NCBI GenBank assembly: GCA_001438205.1
Contig: LICG01000001.1
Coordinates: forward strand, 62,001-126,000
From: Cryomorphaceae bacterium BACL7 MAG-120322-bin74
GTDB taxonomy: Bacteria; Bacteroidota; Bacteroidia; Flavobacteriales; Schleiferiaceae
DNA length: 64,000 nt
Direction of reading: 5' to 3'
The position numbers were made by a program, and so were the translations under genes. Below are positions 33,495 through 44,027 of this stretch, one piece after another. The notes below the pieces were generated by a model, which was not told the origin of the DNA, made no database searches, and saw only the letters and a program-made list of their open reading frames with translations. The first letter of the stretch is position 1. The number at the start of each line of letters is the position of its first letter.

Positions 33495-36400
33495 ATGCAG
33501 AATAAAGGGGTTATCCGTCTGTTCACTATTGTATTTGCAGCTGCATCGCTGTTTGAACTTTCGTTCAGTTATGTTGCGAGTCAAGTAGAGTCAAATATCC
33601 ATGCCAAGTATGGCGACAATGCGACGAAGGTCCAGTATGCATTGGATTCTATGTCAAATGAGGTCGTGTACGATTTAGGCTTTGCATCCTATTCATACAA
33701 GGAAGTCAAGGCTAAGGAGATGAATCTTGGATTGGATCTACGTGGTGGAATGAACGTGATTCTTGAAGTGTCTGTTCGTGACGTTCTCAAAGGTCTTGTA
33801 GGCAATCCAGATGACGCACAATTTAAAGCAGCTATTACAGCTGCAGATGCTGCGCAAGCCAATAGCCAATTAGGCTATTTACCCCTTTTCATGGAGGCAC
33901 TTAATGTGGAACGTGACACACGTCCATTGAGTGATCCAGGCCTGTATGGAACCAAAGACATGACCGATCGTTTAGGTTTCAATGCAACCGATGAAGCCAT
34001 TCAACAAGCGATTCAGGAAGATGTAGAAGCAGCGATTCAGAATGTATACACCGTATTGAAGGCTCGTATTGACCAATTTGGTGTAGTACAGCCCAATATT
34101 CAGCGTTTGGACGGCACGGGTCGCATCTTGGTTGAACTACCGGGTGTAAAAGATCCTGTTCGCGTACAGCGTTTGCTTCAAAGCACCGCGCGTCTTGAGT
34201 TCTGGCGTGCTGACCAAGGAGCAGCATGGATGCAATACATCGTAAATGCCAATGACAAGCTACGCTCCCTCATAGAAAACCCTGTTAAGAAAGTTGCCAC
34301 TTCTGAGGAAGCTGGGGCAGAAGCCACAGACTTCACGTTGCCCACATCTATTGGCGAAAACACGGACGAAAACACCGTGGCTGCAGCAGAAAGCACCGAA
34401 GCATCGCCAGACTCATCTGCACTTGGATTTAATCCATTGTTAAACGTATTCCAACTAAACGTCAATCCACAAACTTTTGTACCAAACGAAGGTCCTATTG
34501 TGGGCTATGCGTTAACGCGAGACACGGCCACCATCAATGGCTACTTGGCCATGCCTGAAATACGCAATTTGATTCCTGGCAATGCCCGTTATGTGCGATT
34601 TGCATGGACGCGTCCGGAAAACAATAGCGAAGTCACTTTACTGATTGCACTTCAAGGCAACCGCAACAATGAACCTGAATTAGATGGTGGCGTTATTGTA
34701 GATGCCCGTCAAGAATTTGACCAAGGAAACAATCCAGTTGTGACCATGGCGATGAATGGTCAAGGGGCGCAAGTGTGGCAACAATTGACCAAAGAAGAAG
34801 GAAGCAAGACCCCAAAGGGTCACGTTGCCGTCGTGTTGGACAATTTAGTGTACAGCTATCCACGTGTGAATGGCGAGATTTCGGGTGGACGCACACAAAT
34901 TGAAGGCGGATTTAGCCTGGATGAAGCAACCGATTTAGCCAACGTGCTTAAGGCAGGTAAACTACCTGTTCCTGCGCGTATTATTCAATCGGATGTCGTA
35001 GGACCAAGCCTTGGTAAGGAAGCGATTTCTGCCAGTATGAATTCCTTTGCCTTTGCCTTGTTGGTCGTGCTTCTCTATATGGTCTTCTATTATAGCGGAG
35101 CAGGATTTGGTGCAAGCTTAGCCCTAGTGGTCAACATGTTCTTCATCTTTGGTATCCTAGATGCGTTTGGCGCGGTACTCACCTTGCCCGGTATGGCGGG
35201 TATTGTCCTGACCATAGGTATGGCGGTAGATGCGAACGTACTTATTTATGACCGAATCCGGGAGGAATTGGCCACAGGTAAAGCAGTCAGAACGGCAATT
35301 GCAGACGGATATAAAGGTTCGCGTAGTGCCATCATTGACGCAAACGTAACAACCCTATTGACGGCGATCATCTTATTTGTATTTGGTACGGGACCCATCC
35401 GAGGTTTTGCTACTACCTTGATTATTGGTATTGCCTCCTCGTTGTTTACGGCCATCTTCATTACGCGTTTGTATTTTGAATGGAGGTTGAAGCGCTCGGA
35501 GCACATGTCCTTTGCGACATCTATTACGAAGAACTGGTTCACAAACACGAACTTTAAATTCATGTCATTGCGCAAGCCTGCGTACATCTTCTCTGCTATC
35601 CTCATTATAGCGAGCTTGGGATCTTTGTTTACACGTGGACTGAGTTTAGGCGTTGATTTTGAAGGTGGACGTACGTATCAAGTGCGCTTTGATCAACCGG
35701 TAGAAGTGGCTGCTGTTGCGGCCTCTTTAGGTAGCCAATGGGTCGATGCGGATGGCCGTGCCTACACGCCAGCTGTAAAGACGCTCGGAAGCCCAGATCA
35801 GGTTGTTATCACCACCAATTACCGCGTAGATGAAAATGGGGCTGACGTGGAAGAAGCCATTCAAGCCAGCCTCTATGCAGGGATCAAGGGTTTCTATGCG
35901 CAACCAATGGATGAGGCTACTTTTATCAACCCATCTGCGGAAGAAGAGAATGCCATGGGTCTTGTTGCGTCCCGCCAAGTAGGTCCTACCGTGGCAGATG
36001 ACATCAAAGACACTGCCGTCTGGGCAGTCATCTTCTCTCTAATTGCCATCTTCTTGTATTTGTTGATGCGGTTCAACAAGTGGCAATACTCAGTAGGAGC
36101 TGTAGCGGCAACCGTTCATGATACCATCATTGTATTAGGTGCTTTCTCTTTGTTGGATGGTGTATTGCCTTTCTCTTTAGAAGTAGATCAGGCGTTCATA
36201 GCGGCGATCCTTACGGTGATCGGTTATTCGTTAAACGATACGGTTGTTGTATTTGACCGTATTCGCGAATTCTTTGGGGGAAGTACCAAAGGTCAAATGA
36301 AGTCAGAAGTTTTAGATGACGCACTCAATGCAACCTTGAGCCGTACGTTTAATACCTCGTTCACGACCATTCTTGTATTGCTCATCATCTTTGTTTTTGG

Positions 36401-36530
36401 CGGTGAGGTATTGCGCGGTTTCATCTTTGCAATCTTGCTGGGCATTGTGGTAGGTACCTATTCATCCCTCTTTATTGCTTCGCCGGTGTTGCACGACACG
36501 AGCAATCGTTTGGGTAAGGAAAAACCGTAA
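33495..36530 (+). CDS. secDF: Protein translocase SecDF (fused SecD and SecF)
   Basis: Proton-driven accessory of the Sec translocon. The 1011-residue protein fuses SecD (about 1-640) and SecF (about 680-1011), as usual in Bacteroidota. SecD features: one N-terminal helix, MNLGLDLRGGMNVILEV, a long periplasmic region, and the membrane motif TIGMAVDANVLIYDRIREEL with the functional Asp. SecF features: GLSLGVDFEGGRTYQVRF and TVIGYSLNDTVVVFDRIREFF. Twelve membrane helices are expected. An extra acidic, low-complexity stretch in the periplasmic part (residues ~255-315, rich in Glu, Ala, Thr, Ser) seems lineage-specific. tatA follows after 8 bases. Confidence 0.97.
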   Translation: MQNKGVIRLFTIVFAAASLFELSFSYVASQVESNIHAKYGDNATKVQYALDSMSNEVVYDLGFASYSYKEVKAKEMNLGLDLRGGMNVILEVSVRDVLKGLVGNPDDAQFKAAITAADAAQANSQLGYLPLFMEALNVERDTRPLSDPGLYGTKDMTDRLGFNATDEAIQQAIQEDVEAAIQNVYTVLKARIDQFGVVQPNIQRLDGTGRILVELPGVKDPVRVQRLLQSTARLEFWRADQGAAWMQYIVNANDKLRSLIENPVKKVATSEEAGAEATDFTLPTSIGENTDENTVAAAESTEASPDSSALGFNPLLNVFQLNVNPQTFVPNEGPIVGYALTRDTATINGYLAMPEIRNLIPGNARYVRFAWTRPENNSEVTLLIALQGNRNNEPELDGGVIVDARQEFDQGNNPVVTMAMNGQGAQVWQQLTKEEGSKTPKGHVAVVLDNLVYSYPRVNGEISGGRTQIEGGFSLDEATDLANVLKAGKLPVPARIIQSDVVGPSLGKEAISASMNSFAFALLVVLLYMVFYYSGAGFGASLALVVNMFFIFGILDAFGAVLTLPGMAGIVLTIGMAVDANVLIYDRIREELATGKAVRTAIADGYKGSRSAIIDANVTTLLTAIILFVFGTGPIRGFATTLIIGIASSLFTAIFITRLYFEWRLKRSEHMSFATSITKNWFTNTNFKFMSLRKPAYIFSAILIIASLGSLFTRGLSLGVDFEGGRTYQVRFDQPVEVAAVAASLGSQWVDADGRAYTPAVKTLGSPDQVVITTNYRVDENGADVEEAIQASLYAGIKGFYAQPMDEATFINPSAEEENAMGLVASRQVGPTVADDIKDTAVWAVIFSLIAIFLYLLMRFNKWQYSVGAVAATVHDTIIVLGAFSLLDGVLPFSLEVDQAFIAAILTVIGYSLNDTVVVFDRIREFFGGSTKGQMKSEVLDDALNATLSRTFNTSFTTILVLLIIFVFGGEVLRGFIFAILLGIVVGTYSSLFIASPVLHDTSNRLGKEKP

Positions 36531-36538
36531 CGTTTCTT

Positions 36539-36790
36539 ATGTTCCTATTTATCAGCACCGGAGAAGTAGTATTCCTGCTTTTTGCGGTGCTGATGCTTTT
36601 TGGCACGGACAAACTTCCTGAAGTTGCTCGTATGGCAGCAAAGACCATCAAAATGGTCCGAAATGCCAGCAATGATCTCAAAGCTGAAATCACCAAGGCA
36701 GCGGATCAAGATCCGACGCTGAAGGACGCAAAAGACAGTATCAAGGAAATTCAAGACTCAATCGAAGACACGGTAGGCCGCTTGAAGTAG
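36539..36790 (+). CDS. tatA: Twin-arginine translocase subunit TatA/TatE family
   Basis: An 83-residue protein with one N-terminal membrane helix (about 3-21, GEVVFLLFAVLMLFG), the family-typical FG hinge followed by TDKLPEVARMAAKTI, an amphipathic helix, and a charged C-terminal tail. This is the TatA/TatB architecture of the Tat export pore. It starts 8 bases after secDF, pairing two protein-export systems in one transcript. TatC is not in the window; TatA versus TatB cannot be separated by sequence alone here. Confidence 0.88.
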   Translation: MFLFISTGEVVFLLFAVLMLFGTDKLPEVARMAAKTIKMVRNASNDLKAEITKAADQDPTLKDAKDSIKEIQDSIEDTVGRLK

Positions 36791-36874
36791 TCTGGTTCGC
36801 TCTTTTTATTCTTTTTCTAAAGAAGACCCCCTTAATATTGTTGGAAAAATGGTTTAAAAATTGTTTTTTTGTCA

Positions 36875-36905
36875 TTGTACCCCTAAAAAATAGGGGGTAA
36901 CTTTG
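36875..36905 (+). promoter_or_regulatory. glnA (GSIII) promoter with inverted-repeat operator candidate
   Basis: TTG (36875-36877), a 20-base spacer and a perfect TAACTTTG (36898-36905) ending 17 bases before the start codon. The spacer holds the inverted repeat TACCCCTA (36878-36885), AAAAA, TAGGGGGTA (36891-36899), which overlaps the first two bases of the -7 box. A regulator bound there would block RNA polymerase. The 132-base gap upstream is AT-rich with nothing else visible. Confidence 0.6.
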
Positions 36906-36922
36906 AAAAAATTAAATAAACC

Positions 36923-39112
36923 ATGGCACTAGTACGATTTTCCGGCTTAGCACAAGCCTTTTTGCACCAACCGGTTGAATTTGTCAACCCTTTCAATAAG
37001 TCTTCTGAGTATTATGGCTCACATGTCTTCAATCAAAAGGCCATGCGTGAATACTTGTCAAAAGAAGCGTATGAAAGGGTTCTCAGTGCAATTGAAAAGG
37101 GGAATAAAATTGACCGATACATGGCGGATCAAGTGGCTACAGCGATGAAAGCATGGTCTATTTCTAAAGGCGCCTCTCATTATACCCATTGGTTCCAGCC
37201 TCTAACGGGTGCTACGGCAGAAAAGCATGATGCTTTTTTTGAGCCTACGGAGGATGGTCACGCCATCGAAAAATTTAATGGTGGAATGTTGGTTCAAGCA
37301 GAACCAGATGCATCTTCTTTCCCGAATGGGGGTATTCGCAATACGTTTGAAGCACGTGGCTATACTGCTTGGGATCCCACGTCTCCTGTGTTTGTATTTG
37401 GAAGTACGTTGTGCATCCCTTCCGTTTTTGTTTCCTACACGGGAGAGGCACTCGATCACAAAGTTCCTTTGCTAAGGGCGCTTCAAGCGATTGATCATGC
37501 CGCCGTTGAAGTGGGACAATATTTTGATAAGAACATTAGCAAAGTCAATGCTACCCTTGGTTGGGAGCAAGAGTATTTTCTTGTGGATGAGGCTTTGTTT
37601 CATGCGCGTCCTGATTTGGTTATGACAGGCCGTACGCTTGTAGGCCATTCCCCGGCTAAAGGTCAGCAAATGGATGACCATTATTTTGGAAGCATTCCAG
37701 AACGTGTCATGAGTTACATGCGCGAGGTAGAGTATGAATGTCACAAATTGGGTATTCCGGTAAAGACCCGTCACAATGAAGTGGCGCCAGGACAATATGA
37801 ATTTGCCCCCATTTATGAAGAAGCGAACGTGGCGGTTGACCACAACTCCTTGTTCATGGACATCTTAGATAAAGTGGCACGACGCCATGCTTTCCGCATC
37901 TTGCTGCATGAAAAGCCATTTGCGGGCATCAATGGTTCGGGTAAGCACAACAACTGGAGCCTAAGTACCAATACGGGTATCAACCTTTTGGCCCCTGGTA
38001 GCACGCCAAAACGCAACTTGTTGTTCTTGACATTCTTCATCAATACCATCAAGGCAGTAAATGACCGTGCGGACTTGATTCGCGCAGCCATCGCAGCGGC
38101 AAGTAATGACCATCGCTTAGGTGCCAATGAGGCACCTCCTGCGATTATTTCCGTGTTCATTGGCACACAATTGTCTGAGGTACTCGACGAGCTGGAGAAA
38201 CTAGAAAGCGGCAAAATGTCTCCTGAAAAGAAGACGGAACTCAAATTGAATGTGGTGGGAAAAATACCCGAAATCCTTTTGGACAATACGGACCGAAACC
38301 GCACCTCTCCTTTCGCGTTTACAGGCAATAAGTTTGAACTGCGTGCAGTAGGCTCTACGGCAAACTGCGCTGTACCTATGACGGTGCTCAATACCATCGT
38401 CGCAGATCAATTGGTGCAATTCAAAAAGGAAGTCGATGCCTTGATTAAAAACGGCATGAAAAAAGATGATGCCATTTTCAACATCTTAAAAGAGTATATC
38501 AAGTCATCAAAAGCTATTCGCTTTGAGGGTGATGGGTATTCAGATGCTTGGAAAGTAGAGGCAGAAAAGCGCGGACTTAAGAACACGCCCGACACGCCTC
38601 GCGCCTTGGATTTCTATGTAACTCAGGACGCCAAAGACCTTTTTGCTAAGCACGGCATTCTCAATGAGGTTGAGTTGGAAGCACGCTATGAAATTCTTCA
38701 AGAGGAATACTACAAAAAGATTCAAATTGAATCACGCACCCTGAGCGATTTGGTGCAGAATCAAATTGTTCCAACTGCGATTCAATATCAATCTATTTTA
38801 AGTCAAAATGTGATGCGTTTAAAAGAGGTGCTTCCGGTAGAGACCTTTACGCGAGTGAGCAGGGAGCAAATGGACATGATCATTGAAATTTCTGAACGTA
38901 TTTCTGCCATCTTGACGCAGTCTGGAGAAATGATTGAAGAGCGCAAAAAAGCCAACAATATTGCCCATGCGCGCGAACGTGCTTTAGCCTATTGCGATCA
39001 TGTGAAACCTTACTTTGAACAGATTCGTTATGAGGTGGACAAATTAGAATTGTTGATTGACAATGAAATGTGGCCTTTGCCGAAGTACCGCGAAATGCTG
39101 TATATCCGCTAG
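36923..39112 (+). CDS. glnA: Glutamine synthetase type III
   Basis: ATP-dependent synthesis of glutamine from glutamate and ammonia, the main ammonium-assimilation step. At 729 residues this is the large GSIII (GlnN) form, not the ~470-residue GSI. Landmarks: N-terminal SSEYYGSHVFNQKAM, SHYTHWFQPLTG, WEQEYFLVDEALF (metal ligands), KTRHNEVAPGQYEFAPIYEE, and the ATP-site INGSGKHNNWSLSTN. The GSIII-specific C-terminal helical extension runs from ~residue 560 to the end. The name glnN is also used. It has its own promoter with an operator-like palindrome, and a strong terminator follows. Confidence 0.95.
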   Translation: MALVRFSGLAQAFLHQPVEFVNPFNKSSEYYGSHVFNQKAMREYLSKEAYERVLSAIEKGNKIDRYMADQVATAMKAWSISKGASHYTHWFQPLTGATAEKHDAFFEPTEDGHAIEKFNGGMLVQAEPDASSFPNGGIRNTFEARGYTAWDPTSPVFVFGSTLCIPSVFVSYTGEALDHKVPLLRALQAIDHAAVEVGQYFDKNISKVNATLGWEQEYFLVDEALFHARPDLVMTGRTLVGHSPAKGQQMDDHYFGSIPERVMSYMREVEYECHKLGIPVKTRHNEVAPGQYEFAPIYEEANVAVDHNSLFMDILDKVARRHAFRILLHEKPFAGINGSGKHNNWSLSTNTGINLLAPGSTPKRNLLFLTFFINTIKAVNDRADLIRAAIAAASNDHRLGANEAPPAIISVFIGTQLSEVLDELEKLESGKMSPEKKTELKLNVVGKIPEILLDNTDRNRTSPFAFTGNKFELRAVGSTANCAVPMTVLNTIVADQLVQFKKEVDALIKNGMKKDDAIFNILKEYIKSSKAIRFEGDGYSDAWKVEAEKRGLKNTPDTPRALDFYVTQDAKDLFAKHGILNEVELEARYEILQEEYYKKIQIESRTLSDLVQNQIVPTAIQYQSILSQNVMRLKEVLPVETFTRVSREQMDMIIEISERISAILTQSGEMIEERKKANNIAHARERALAYCDHVKPYFEQIRYEVDKLELLIDNEMWPLPKYREMLYIR

Positions 39113-39137
39113 TCAATTCTTGCCTCTTCTATAAAAT

Positions 39138-39172
39138 TAGACCCCGAGGTACACCCTCGGGGGTCTTTTTTT
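39138..39172 (+). terminator. Intrinsic terminator of glutamine synthetase
   Basis: GACCCCGAGG (39140-39149) pairs with CCTCGGGGGTC (39155-39165) across a 5-base loop, with one bulged G, followed by seven T. Confidence 0.88.
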
Positions 39173-39228
39173 GCTTGGATTTGGCTACTTTAGTGGTTTA
39201 ACCCCAATATGCACACTTTCACGCGGTC

Positions 39229-41745
39229 ATGAAGAAGGCATTTTATCTATTTACACTTCTCTTTTTAGTAGGCGCTTCTGCCACTGTTCTTGCCCAAGAG
39301 GCAGAGGCAGAAGTGTCCAAGCGTCCACGTCCAGCGCGTCAGGCGGATGGTTTTTATGCCGGTAGAGAATACGCCCAGGCCATCAACTTGTACAAAAAGG
39401 CGTATTCTAAAGTGAAGACGCGCCCTGAAAAAGCGGAAATCGCATACCGTTTGGGAGAATGTTACCGCAATACATTCCAATACAAACAGGCTGAAGCGCA
39501 GTATACCCGTGCCTTCAAGATGAAGCTCGAGACGCCAGAAGTGTATTTGGGCATCGCAGAAATGCTAAAATATCAAAGTGAGTATGAGGATGCCCTCAAG
39601 GCGTATGAAGACTTTGCCCGCGCTTTCCCTGGTGATCCCCGCGGACCATTGGGCGTTCAATCCTGTCAAGATGCTGTAGCATGGCAAAAATCTTTGACGC
39701 GTTTCCAAGTAGGTAATTTGACTTCGCTAAACTCTTCCTCCCATGAATTTGGGATGACCTTCAGCGGTCGTCCGGATACGTATGAAGAAGTATTGCTTAC
39801 CTCTATGCGTGAAGGAGGCATTGGCCGCAAGAAAGATGGCTGGACCGGGGAACGCTTTTCAGACATCTACAGCGCTGAACGTCTGAATTCTGACGGTAGT
39901 TCTCGTAGCAAACGTAGTCGTGGTCGTACACCAAAAGCAGATGCTTCAGCGGCAAAAGTGCAAACTTTCTCTGAGCCCGTGCTGCTTCCTGAAGCGGTGA
40001 ACACAGAAGACCATGAAGGAAGTCCTGTTTTTGATGCCCGTCGCCGTACCATGTACTTCACACGGTGTATGGATGTCAAGCGCCAACAATTAGGTTGCGC
40101 TATTTATTCAACCCGAAAGGCAGGTTTAACTTGGCAGGAGCCACAGTTGATCGTTTTATCCCCTGATTCATCTTCATCAGTAGGCCATCCTGCGATTAGC
40201 CCAGACGATCAAACCTTGTTCTTTGCAGGTGATTTGGAAGGTTCCGTTGACGGATCCAAAGATCTTTGGATGGTCAAAGTAGATAAGAAAAAACGCGGTT
40301 GGGGAGACCCAATCAATCTAGGACCCTTGGTTAATACCAATGGCGACGAATTATATCCATTCCTTCACGATGACGGGTATCTATACTTTGCTTCAAGTGG
40401 CTTGCCCGGAATGGGTGGGTTTGACTTGTTCCGTGTGGAACTAGGTGCAGATGGCATGCCTATTGGAATTCCTGAAAACTTAAAGTCGCCAATCAATAGT
40501 CCTTCAGATGACTTTGGTATTTTACTCCGACCAGGAGGCATGCAAGATGGCTACTTTGTGTCTAACCGCGACGGCGGACAGGGGGGCGATGATATCTGGA
40601 CCTTGTATGAAGTTCCTTTGCGTTATCGTATTTCCGGCACACTAGTAAGCTCTAAAGATAGCGACCCTATCGGGGGTGCCGCAGTAAAAATCACGGGCAA
40701 CGATGGCTTCAGTCAAGTAATTCAAACAGGTAAGGATGGCATCTTTGTCTTAGAGTCAGAAGATTTGAATGGCGATGTCATGTACTCCTTCTCCTTTGAA
40801 AAGAAGAAATTCTTGAATTCTGGAGCACGGGTAAACACCAATGCCTTAGCACTCGAATCCTTCCATTATCTCGAGGCGCAAAACGTGTACATGCACACCG
40901 CAGAGGTCAAGGCTAAAATGGATCCTATCGAGATTCCTATCATCTTACCTGACGTGTACTTTGCTCTGGCAAAGTGGGATTTGAATGACCAAGCACGGAC
41001 AGCACTTGATACAGTCGTGAAAACGTTGACGCTTAATCCGAACATTGTGATTGAGCTTCGTTCTCATACAGATTACCGTGACGTGGATGAAAAAAACATT
41101 ATTCTGTCGCAACATCGTGCAGATACCTCGGTGAAATATTTGATCTCTCGAGGTATACATCCAGATCGATTGGTCGCCGTGGGTATGGGCGAGAGCCAGC
41201 CATTTGAGATTCCGCAAGGATACAAAGGACTTGGTGCGGATCTCTATCCTGCAGGAACACAGTTGACAGAGCGCAACATTAAGCGCATGTCGACTTCACA
41301 GCAAGAAGTAGCGAATCAAATTAACCGTCGTACGGACTTCCGTGTGGTTCGGGATGATTATGAACCGCCTGTTGATGCTGTAGCACTGGCAGCCTCCACT
41401 GAAGCGCAAGCAAAGGAAGATGCAAAGGCAGCTATTGGCCAGATGTATACTGTACAGGACCGTGATTCGTACACGACCATCTGTCGGAACAATAACATCA
41501 CGATTTCCAACTTGAAGCGCCTGAATGATGGACTTCGAGGTGTACGTCCCTTCCCTGGTATGGTGCTCAAAGTAACCGTAGGGGGTGATTATGCCGAGTA
41601 TGATAAGACGCACCGTCAAGTGGCCGTGGGTGAATCATTCAAGACAATTGCCAAAGAATTGGGCCTACGCTCCAAGGAATTGGAAGCCTTGAATCCTGAG
41701 TATGAAGACGAGCTTCCCGCTGGCACCTACATCCGCATCCAGTAA
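39229..41745 (+). CDS. OmpA-family protein with TPR, PD40 propeller, CRD-like and LysM regions
   Basis: An 838-residue envelope protein with signal peptide MKKAFYLFTLLFLVGASATV (cleavage near LAQ; no lipobox). Order of parts: TPR-like helices (~40-150, IAYRLGECYRNTFQYKQAEA), a PD40/WD40-like beta-propeller (~165-460, GHPAISPDDQTLFFAGDLEG and YFVSNRDGGQGGDDIW), and a carboxypeptidase-regulatory-like domain (~465-555). An OmpA C-terminal peptidoglycan-binding domain follows (~575-690, VIELRSHTDYRD), then two LysM-like modules (~740-835, YTVQDRDSYTTICRNNN and VAVGESFKTIAKELGL). The TPR-propeller-CRD-OmpA order is that of PorE of the T9SS; the LysM pair and non-lipoprotein signal differ. No PorP/SprF-like neighbour is present, so PorE identity is not claimed. 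Confidence 0.82.
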   Translation: MKKAFYLFTLLFLVGASATVLAQEAEAEVSKRPRPARQADGFYAGREYAQAINLYKKAYSKVKTRPEKAEIAYRLGECYRNTFQYKQAEAQYTRAFKMKLETPEVYLGIAEMLKYQSEYEDALKAYEDFARAFPGDPRGPLGVQSCQDAVAWQKSLTRFQVGNLTSLNSSSHEFGMTFSGRPDTYEEVLLTSMREGGIGRKKDGWTGERFSDIYSAERLNSDGSSRSKRSRGRTPKADASAAKVQTFSEPVLLPEAVNTEDHEGSPVFDARRRTMYFTRCMDVKRQQLGCAIYSTRKAGLTWQEPQLIVLSPDSSSSVGHPAISPDDQTLFFAGDLEGSVDGSKDLWMVKVDKKKRGWGDPINLGPLVNTNGDELYPFLHDDGYLYFASSGLPGMGGFDLFRVELGADGMPIGIPENLKSPINSPSDDFGILLRPGGMQDGYFVSNRDGGQGGDDIWTLYEVPLRYRISGTLVSSKDSDPIGGAAVKITGNDGFSQVIQTGKDGIFVLESEDLNGDVMYSFSFEKKKFLNSGARVNTNALALESFHYLEAQNVYMHTAEVKAKMDPIEIPIILPDVYFALAKWDLNDQARTALDTVVKTLTLNPNIVIELRSHTDYRDVDEKNIILSQHRADTSVKYLISRGIHPDRLVAVGMGESQPFEIPQGYKGLGADLYPAGTQLTERNIKRMSTSQQEVANQINRRTDFRVVRDDYEPPVDAVALAASTEAQAKEDAKAAIGQMYTVQDRDSYTTICRNNNITISNLKRLNDGLRGVRPFPGMVLKVTVGGDYAEYDKTHRQVAVGESFKTIAKELGLRSKELEALNPEYEDELPAGTYIRIQ

Positions 41746-41756
41746 GGCTTAGGCCT

Positions 41757-41764
41757 TACCTTTG
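41757..41764 (+). promoter_or_regulatory. Promoter -7 box of the purM operon
   Basis: TACCTTTG, a perfect TAnnTTTG match, ends four bases before the purM ATG, implying leaderless translation of the first gene of a four-gene operon. Confidence 0.6.
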
Positions 41765-41768
41765 CGGC

Positions 41769-42944
41769 ATGGAGCAGAGCGCACGATATGCGGGCCGAGG
41801 CGTGTCCTCAGGCAAGGAAGAAGTACATAAGGCCATTGCGCACATTGACAAGGGGCTCTTTCCCAAGGCCTTCTGTAAAATTGTACCCGATGATCTGACT
41901 GGTTCTGAAGAACATTGTTTGGTCATGCACGCAGACGGTGCTGGTACAAAATCTTCGTTGGCATATCTCTATTGGAAAGAAACGGGCGATCTATCTGTTT
42001 GGCGCGGCATTGCCCAGGATGCGGTGATCATGAACGTGGACGACCTTCTATGCGTGGGGGCTACAGGTCCCATTCTTTTGTCCAGCACCATTGGTCGAAA
42101 CAAGAACCGCATTTCAGGTGATGTGTTAACTGCCTTGATTGAAGGCACAGAATCTGTTTTGGCAGATTTGCGCGCTAATGGCCTGGATATCCGCTCCACA
42201 GGGGGCGAAACTGCGGATGTTGGAGATCTTGTTCGCACGGTCATTGTCGACAGCACGGTGATGGCTCGCTTGCGCAGGGATCAGGTCATAGACAATGCAG
42301 GCATTGCCCCAGGTCAAGTGATTGTTGGGCTCAGCTCTTCGGGGCAAGCAGCCTATGAAAAGGAATATAATGGCGGTATGGGGTCCAATGGATTAACCTC
42401 TGCCCGCCATGATGTCTTTCATAAACTTTTGGCGGAACGCTACCCTGAGAGTTTTGATCCAGAGATGGAAGCTTCTTTGGTGTATTCAGGGAGCAAGCAG
42501 CTGACCGATGCCATAGCCGGAACCCCATTGGATGCGGGTAAGCTGGTTCTATCTCCTACACGTACATATGCACCCATTATTGTGGAGATGTTAAAACACA
42601 TGCGTCCGCACATCAAAGGCATGGTACATTGCTCCGGAGGTGCCCAAACCAAAGTCTTACACTTTGCGACACAAGGCAAAATTGTCAAGGATACGTTGTT
42701 TCCTGTTCCGCCGCTTTTTGAACTTATTCAAAAGGAATCCAATACCTCATGGCGCGAAATGTACCGCGTCTTTAATATGGGCCACCGAATGGAACTTTAT
42801 ATGGACCCTGCCCATGCACAAGCGGCCATAGATATCTCCCGTTCTTTTGGGGTTGAAGCACAAATCATTGGACGCATTGAGCCCCAAGCCATCCCTGAAG
42901 TTCACTTGCTAGCCCCCGATGGCTGGCATATCTACAAGGCCTAA
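41769..42944 (+). CDS. purM: Phosphoribosylformylglycinamidine cyclo-ligase (AIR synthase)
   Basis: Fifth step of purine synthesis, ATP-dependent cyclisation of FGAM to AIR. The 391-residue protein begins MEQSARYAGRGVSSGKEEVH and shows the PurM-fold motifs: HADGAGTKSSLAYLYW, the metal/ATP-binding AQDAVIMNVDDLLCVGATGP, STGGETADVGDLVRTV, VGLSSSGQAAYEKEYNGGMG and MVHCSGGAQTKVLHF. It is of the diverged Bacteroidota type, longer than E. coli PurM (345). It heads an operon: prfA follows after 3 bases, then pyrF and an SDR gene by 4-base overlaps, mixing purine, translation-termination and pyrimidine functions. Confidence 0.92.
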   Translation: MEQSARYAGRGVSSGKEEVHKAIAHIDKGLFPKAFCKIVPDDLTGSEEHCLVMHADGAGTKSSLAYLYWKETGDLSVWRGIAQDAVIMNVDDLLCVGATGPILLSSTIGRNKNRISGDVLTALIEGTESVLADLRANGLDIRSTGGETADVGDLVRTVIVDSTVMARLRRDQVIDNAGIAPGQVIVGLSSSGQAAYEKEYNGGMGSNGLTSARHDVFHKLLAERYPESFDPEMEASLVYSGSKQLTDAIAGTPLDAGKLVLSPTRTYAPIIVEMLKHMRPHIKGMVHCSGGAQTKVLHFATQGKIVKDTLFPVPPLFELIQKESNTSWREMYRVFNMGHRMELYMDPAHAQAAIDISRSFGVEAQIIGRIEPQAIPEVHLLAPDGWHIYKA

Positions 42945-42947
42945 GCG

Positions 42948-44027
42948 ATGAACTTACAGGATAAACTCGATGCTATTTATGTCCGCTTTGAAGAGGTGAA
43001 TGACCTTTTAATGCAGCCTGAATTGGCAGCAGATCGGCAGCGCTTTGTCCGCTTGCACCGGGAATTCAAAGAATTACAAGCAGTCGTAGAGGCCCGTGGT
43101 CGATGGATGGAATTGCATGGGCGCCAGGAAGAAGCAAAGCGCATGGTGTCCCTGGAAAAGGACCATGAAATGCGTCAAATGGCGGAAGAAGAGCTTGCTG
43201 ACATTGCGCCCGCATTAGAAGCGTTGGTTCTAGAAATTCAGCAATTGCTTATTCCCAAAGATCCTGAAGATGCCAAGGATGCGGTGTTAGAAGTTCGGGC
43301 GGGCACAGGGGGCGATGAGGCAGGACTTTTTGCGGGAGAGCTGTTGCGTATGTATTTGCGCTATCTAGAAGAACGAGGTTGGACCTATGAATTGCTCAGC
43401 GCCACAGAAGGTTCTGCTGGTGGTTATAAAGAAGCGAGTATTCAAGTTCGCGGTGAAGATGTCTATGGTACATTAAAGTATGAATCCGGCGTGCACCGTG
43501 TTCAGCGCGTACCCGCAACAGAATCGCAGGGTCGGGTCCACACTTCCGCTGCTACTGTGGCAGTTTTGCCAGAAGCCGATGAACTCGATGTGCAAATTCG
43601 TGATGTCGACATCCGCAAAGACACCTTTCGTTCGAGTGGAGCAGGAGGACAGCACGTCAACAAAACGGAATCGGGCGTTCGCCTAACACACTTTCCAACC
43701 GGAATAGTCGTAGAATGTCAAGATGGGCGCTCGCAGCATCAAAACTATGACCGCGCATTAACGGTTCTCCGTGCGCGTATTTGGGATAAAGCCAGGGCAG
43801 CCCAAGATGCTGATGTAGCCGAAAAGCGTAAGAGCTTAGTCAGCACCGGAGATCGTTCGGCCAAGATTCGAACGTACAATTTTCCGCAAGGCCGTGTGAC
43901 CGATCACCGCATTGGCCTCACCTTGTACAATCTACCCGATGTCATGAACGGACAAGTGGGTAAATTCATGGACGAATTGCGCATGGCTGAGAATGCCCAG
44001 CGCTTAAAAGATGGAACGGGAGAATGA
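42948..44027 (+). CDS. prfA: Peptide chain release factor 1
   Basis: Recognises UAA and UAG stop codons and triggers peptide release. The 359-residue protein has the N-terminal helical domain, the stop-codon-reading segment with P-A-T in [16 protein letters not shown] (marking RF1 rather than RF2), and the catalytic GGQ in [19 protein letters not shown] (Gln methylation target). [20 protein letters not shown] near the end is diagnostic. Length is normal. Its start is 3 bases after purM and its stop overlaps the pyrF start (ATGA at 44024-44027). Confidence 0.97.

Follow-up and report, generated by a model that had tools for sequence, protein, structure and literature searches.

A probable phased operator array upstream of type III glutamine synthetase and a predicted nitrogen-assimilation regulon in Bacteroidota

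Bacteroidota are among the main polysaccharide degraders of the gut and the ocean, and to our knowledge the control of nitrogen assimilation in these bacteria is not known. Several of the closest described systems come from other organisms. GlnR and TnrA of Bacillus, which belong to the MerR family, act at palindromic operators at glnA, amtB/glnK and gltAB, with paired sites at some promoters; NtcA of cyanobacteria controls the type III glutamine synthetase (GSIII) gene glnN; and tandem CRP sites lie about 52 bp apart at class III promoters of E. coli. The element analysed here, at the promoter of a GSIII gene, resembles each of these in part. With GlnR/TnrA it shares palindromic operators, paired in places, at glutamine synthetase, amtB/glnK and glt genes; with NtcA, a GSIII gene presumed to be under nitrogen control by palindromic sites upstream of the promoter; with NtrC/sigma-54, tandem phased upstream sites at nitrogen genes; and with tandem CRP, two sites for what would be dimers, five helical turns apart and in fixed phase to the promoter. 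The differences are equally clear, as we know of no 53-bp array for GlnR/TnrA, the promoter is of the TAnnTTTG type, unlike that of sigma-54, and the half-sites of CRP (TGTGA-N6-TCACA) have their centres 11 bp apart as compared to about 14 bp in the operator described here, which, when it lies over the spacer between the -33 and -7 elements, is not activator-like, unlike class III CRP sites.

In the window, by which we mean the whole 64-kb stretch of DNA that was analysed, the initial annotation had placed a palindrome between the -33 and -7 boxes of the GSIII gene, with its right half overlapping the -7 box, and both observations were confirmed (Table 1). TACCCCTAAAAAATAGGGGGTA is a palindrome without mismatches, its C4 and G5 arms being separated by a 9-bp spacer, and its right arm ends one base past the start of TAACTTTG. 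There are 20 bp between the TTG and TAACTTTG, which we take to be the usual spacing of Bacteroidota TTTG/TAnnTTTG promoters, and the ATG of GSIII follows 17 bases past the end of TAACTTTG. Allowing up to 3 mismatches, TACCCCTAAAAAATAGGGGGTA has this sole match in the window, and shuffled windows gave a mean of 0.08 such matches, with at least one in 8 of 100 shuffles. The lone palindrome is only moderately significant by this chance expectation, and conservation therefore had to decide. A second predicted operator, missed by the initial annotation, is centred 52 bp, or five helical turns, upstream of the first; one arm only (ACCCCC) is kept in it and the right arm is degenerate. No other AT-linked operator pair of this type is present in the 64 kb. 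The other ACCCC...GGGGT matches of the window genome that were examined (L050, L053) lie within coding sequence or at its end. The closest relatives (L002-L009) have kept the G-tract arm alone of the proximal site, its left arm being decayed, and a full palindrome lies one register upstream in members of the window genus such as L010 and L012. Our reading of the locus is that the palindrome is the proximal member of a predicted two-operator array and not the whole feature.

Table 1. Predicted features of the GSIII promoter region, in window coordinates.
Feature	Position	Strand	Details
Distal operator (predicted)	36826..36845	+	ACCCCC 36826-36831; spacer 36832-36840; degenerate right arm 36841-36845; centre 36836
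Linker A-tract AAAAA	36856..36860	+	Matches the consensus A-tract (+19 to +24 relative to the distal centre)
Linker T-tract TTTTTTT	36864..36870	+	In or adjoining the consensus position, +30 to +35
Predicted -33 element TTG	36875..36877	+	Bacteroidota promoter type
Proximal operator (predicted)	36878..36899	+	TACCCC 36878-36883; spacer TAAAAAATA 36884-36892; GGGGGTA 36893-36899; centre 36888
Predicted -7 element TAACTTTG	36898..36905	+	Overlaps the right arm; phase to the array common to other genomes
GSIII, 729 aa, presumed regulated gene	36923..39112	+	Pfam GSIII_N, 3.8e-78

To follow the element beyond the window, we compared 135 regions upstream of GSIII genes, 47 from relatives and 88 from the class. 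At E <= 0.001 the GSIII search gave a match in 55 of 60 relatives, in five of which it was only a weak one, to another glutamine synthetase; of the 159 genomes sampled from the class, 152 had GSIII. A second, distant glutamine synthetase of G031 (L046) and two duplicates (L049 and L206) were left out before counting, the partial GSIII matches of G008, G021 and G036 are not in the set, and the class matches without a locus contributed 60 members, picked for spread over families, with start codons taken from the query alignment. These regions held 208 pairs of sites 20-120 bp apart, of which 89 were spaced by 51-55 bp and 42 by exactly 53 bp. Dinucleotide shuffles gave 4.3 pairs at 51-55 bp (maximum 13) against the 89 observed, and at most 11 regions with such a pair against 76 of 135, though the 135 regions are related, so that the shuffles overstate independence. 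The full palindrome, ACCCCN9-11GGGGT, occurs in 22 of the 135 regions (shuffle mean 0.10), and some promoters carry three operators (L021, L023, L025 and L026). The recurrence of tract-defined sites every 53 bp led us to replace the single-palindrome view by that of an array. The element is conserved upstream of orthologous GSIII genes, where the initial annotation had proposed to look for it. Its distribution is uneven, with 26 of the 62 GSIII families sampled carrying the array, 59 of the 135 regions being without a 51-55 bp pair, and the 36 families without the array in the samples taken being mostly those with less similar GSIII. In one family (f3), one of four genomes has the array at GSIII, and G038 and G053 of that family carry related tracts at amtB. 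The pattern GGGGGTN31-35ACCCCC was found at 48 places in the 159 class genomes, 14 of them at GSIII, and at 55 places when reversed as a control, so that the pattern alone is not enriched and only its location is informative.

None of the motifs of other nitrogen regulators that were compared accounts for these sites. The GlnR/TnrA site TGTNAN7TNACA occurs in 1 of the 135 regions (shuffle mean 0.56), the NtrC site GCACN7GTGC in 1, the sigma-54 promoter TGGCACN5TTGC in 0, and neither the NrpR site GGAAN6TTCC (1 region) nor the actinobacterial GlnR site GTNACN6GTNAC (0 regions) is found more often than in shuffles. The NtcA site GTAN8TAC was seen in 13 regions against a shuffle mean of 4.4 and a maximum of 10, but its matches are scattered and do not coincide with the operators of the array, and we do not assign the array to this regulator. 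A candidate from within the phylum is Cur (BT4338), a Crp-family regulator of Bacteroides (PMC6989115; PMC3878776). It invites comparison through its 22-bp palindrome and through the Crp-family gene found just downstream of GSIII in some Bacteroides loci. Membership of the Cur regulon was rejected, as the exact core of its TATGTTnTAnAACATA site occurs in 0 of 135 regions and its published consensus, wwwTATGTTnTAnAACATAwww, is unrelated to the array motif (PMC6989115). The initial annotation had known of no described binding motif of this form, and in this respect it agrees with our survey: no description of the array motif was found in the literature searched, a scope outside which most subscription papers fall, and the motifs of NtrC, GlnR/TnrA and NrpR, like that of Cur, do not fit.

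The aligned pairs give a detailed picture of the element. The operator reads ACCCCC-N9-GGGGGT with an A/T centre, and averaged over the 89 pairs it comprises a C-tract at -9 to -5, the A/T centre at -2 to +2, a G-tract at +5 to +9 and a T at +10. In the linker, positions +19 to +24 form an A-tract and +30 to +35 a T-tract, the two being symmetric about +26.5, the midpoint between the operators. Both (as runs of at least 4) are in place in 34 of the 89 linkers, whereas shuffling the linkers gave 0.45, with a maximum of 4; a T-tract before an A-tract, the swapped order, was found in 0 of the 89. The A/T tracts near 0, 21, 32 and 53 are separated by roughly integral numbers of helical turns, which bending or wrapping of the DNA towards one side would predict, and since the operators recur at 51-55 bp, with a mode of 53 or five turns, all of them share one helical face. 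The promoter shares this register. Measured from the centre of the last operator, TAnnTTTG starts 3-12 bp further downstream in 31 cases and 56-61 bp in 19, with few elsewhere, and this clustering of the -7 boxes at two distances places the promoter in phase with the array whether or not an operator covers the -33/-7 spacer. The window promoter is of the first type; in the alternative layout the nearest operator is one register, about 53 bp, upstream of the spacer.

We propose that an oligomeric protein would bind two or three neighbouring operators cooperatively on one face of the helix and would bend or wrap the linker between them. Under nitrogen excess this protein may shut the promoter, its action being most direct when the -33/-7 spacer is itself covered by an operator, which is the case in the window, and under nitrogen limitation it would be released. 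Binding over the spacer should exclude RNA polymerase, and for this reason repression under nitrogen excess is the mode that we favour, with some reserve. The statement of the initial annotation that the position is ideal for repression does not extend to the group as a whole, because the conserved site of many genomes is not over the promoter but some 70 bp before the predicted transcription start. At promoters whose only operators are at about -72 and -125, repression is not accounted for by simple occlusion, which keeps activation in consideration. The same array and regulon could then serve an activator or dual regulator that recruits RNA polymerase under nitrogen limitation from about -72 and -125, much like tandem CRP sites, the spacer site being auto-limiting or MerR-like. 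The 19 promoters of the second layout and the middle register, which is the most widespread operator position, speak for such a protein, whereas in the 31 promoters of the first layout an ordinary activator would block polymerase, and on balance we consider activation less likely than repression, if its main rival. The palindrome also folds well as RNA (-13.6 kcal/mol, z -2.49), and an attenuator hairpin, riboswitch or terminator in place of a DNA operator would make use of that fold. The left arm of the proximal site, however, is upstream of the -7 box and hence is not transcribed from the predicted GSIII promoter, all sites are upstream of the promoter in many genomes, the strict 53-bp helical phasing is a property of DNA, and there is no Rfam match and no terminator-like site, which together make an RNA element extremely improbable.

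The array is also found beyond GSIII, at several other genes of nitrogen assimilation. Among the relatives the motif occurs upstream of amtB or glnK-amtB, for example in G035, G022 and G026, and in a genome-wide search of the 60 relatives all 5 matches to the palindrome with at most 2 mismatches were at GSIII or glnK-amtB. When all genes of the neighbourhoods were considered, an upstream pair was present at 17 of 21 GSIII and 14 of 20 amtB genes; of the 478 other ORFs only 12 had one, and these include at least one divergent neighbour of amtB. We also scanned 84,980 species with the exact array pattern AGGGGGTN8-9W4N7W4N7-8ACCCCCT and obtained at least 120 stretches; among those listed, 97 lie within 650 bp upstream of nitrogen-assimilation genes, these figures being counts of matches listed under the demand for the exact pattern and not frequencies. 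The genes, labelled by similarity to members that were named by eye from their sequences, are GSIII (68, four of them also with GSII), glnK/amtB (12), gltB (8), alanine dehydrogenase (ald; 6), GSII alone (2) and nirB with a siroheme gene (1). All 97 listed stretches at nitrogen genes have Bacteroidota-type titles, while the 23 others listed include 9 with non-Bacteroidota titles and 2 titled only 'uncultured bacterium'. The hosts listed range from Bacteroides cellulosilyticus, B. finegoldii, B. faecalis and B. faecis to Zobellia, Leeuwenhoekiella, Robiginitalea, Pontibacter, Rufibacter, Hymenobacter and Fluviicola.

Judged by the genes beside which it lies, the array is a nitrogen-assimilation regulon motif in much of the Bacteroidota, gut Bacteroides included. 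The initial annotation had suggested a nitrogen-responsive regulator and named GSIII, amtB, glnK and gltBD as the upstream regions in which to look for the repeat. The element is present at GSIII, amtB/glnK and gltB and, beyond that list, before ald, GSII and nirB, so that the link to nitrogen has been borne out even as its single palindrome gives way to an array with a period of about 53 bp. The location of the copies also bears on the view that phased A- and G-tracts are no more than a structural feature of promoters, as curved DNA or as a site for a nucleoid protein, without a dedicated nitrogen regulator. The A/T tracts are in helical phase, as this would have it, but the concentration of the listed stretches at nitrogen genes, the scarcity of the pair at other genes of the same neighbourhoods and the conservation of the G/C arms as inverted repeats make it improbable. 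The palindrome of the window is probably one operator in an array for a putative widespread Bacteroidota regulator of nitrogen assimilation. In the window genome itself (G000) no match was found to the ammonium transporter PF00909 (amtB) or to PII (PF00543), and GOGAT is represented by a weak, partial match to PF01645 only; it seems to assimilate ammonium through GSIII with only a few of the partners that usually accompany this enzyme.

What appears new here is the operator and the architecture of the array, whereas a nitrogen regulon is of a known kind. More tentatively, the nitrogen control of Bacteroidota, from ocean Flavobacteriales to gut Bacteroides, may be unrelated to NtrC, NtcA, GlnR/TnrA, AmtR and NrpR and may rely on an oligomeric protein of uncharacterised kind that wraps promoter DNA through operators five turns apart, with a dyad of A- and T-tracts midway. 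The array supplies a precise and portable operator definition together with a target set (GSIII, GSII, glnK-amtB, gltB, ald and nirB), with which the regulator can be sought directly in strains open to laboratory work, and the five-turn spacing with its midpoint A/T dyad amounts to a clear structural prediction of how the protein binds.

The neighbourhoods of GSIII revealed no recurrent linked regulator gene. In the window, positions 33495-44027 hold secDF, tatA, GSIII, an OmpA/LysM protein, an AIR-synthase-like gene and prfA as a block, and the block from secDF to prfA is conserved in many other Bacteroidota families. The conserved secDF-tatA-GSIII-ompA block holds no regulator, and the Crp gene of Bacteroides and the MarR, XRE and response-regulator genes of a few lineages, considered as linked regulators, look like local synteny. 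A candidate of a different sort is an Lrp/AsnC protein, whose octamers wrap DNA. The single member detected in the window genome (G000:C31:10323-10787) shares 58% identity with the product of a gene divergent from amtB in G037, and G033 and G052 have similar proteins in the same arrangement. The AsnC-amtB intergenic regions of G037 and G052 carry copies of the motif, and in all 6 of the 6 ald loci a second AsnC group is found near the ald gene with its array. Across the regions, however, array and orthologue do not go together: both are present for 32, the array alone for 44, the orthologue alone for 23 and neither for 36 (Fisher p 0.73). The near-complete genomes G035, G025, G049 and G023 carry the array and have no PF01037 match, and at amtB of G033, G043 and G056 the AsnC neighbour is present and the motif is absent. 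We therefore rejected an operon under Lrp/AsnC control, 44 of the 76 array-bearing regions coming from genomes without an orthologue at the bit-score cut, and regard such a protein as a quite unlikely binder.

Several arrangements of genes were observed alongside these results. An Lrp/AsnC gene divergently adjoins amtB in G033, G037, G052, G043 and G056 (L180, L088, L089, L176 and L082), and the second Lrp/AsnC group, of the IDGIDKKILRFLMEDARKP type, lies within a few kb of the array-bearing ald in L453, L455, L456, L491, L505 and L509. In L432, L444, L503 and L537 a predicted outer-membrane beta-barrel gene and gltB flank one array-bearing intergenic region, with glnK nearby in several of the four, and the beta-barrel gene is possibly that of a nitrogen-regulated porin. 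Finally, in the Bacteroides loci L434, L458, L474 and L477 the next gene downstream of GSIII, in the same orientation, is of the Crp/Fnr family; its position resembles that of Cur (BT4338), and this may be the Cur locus.
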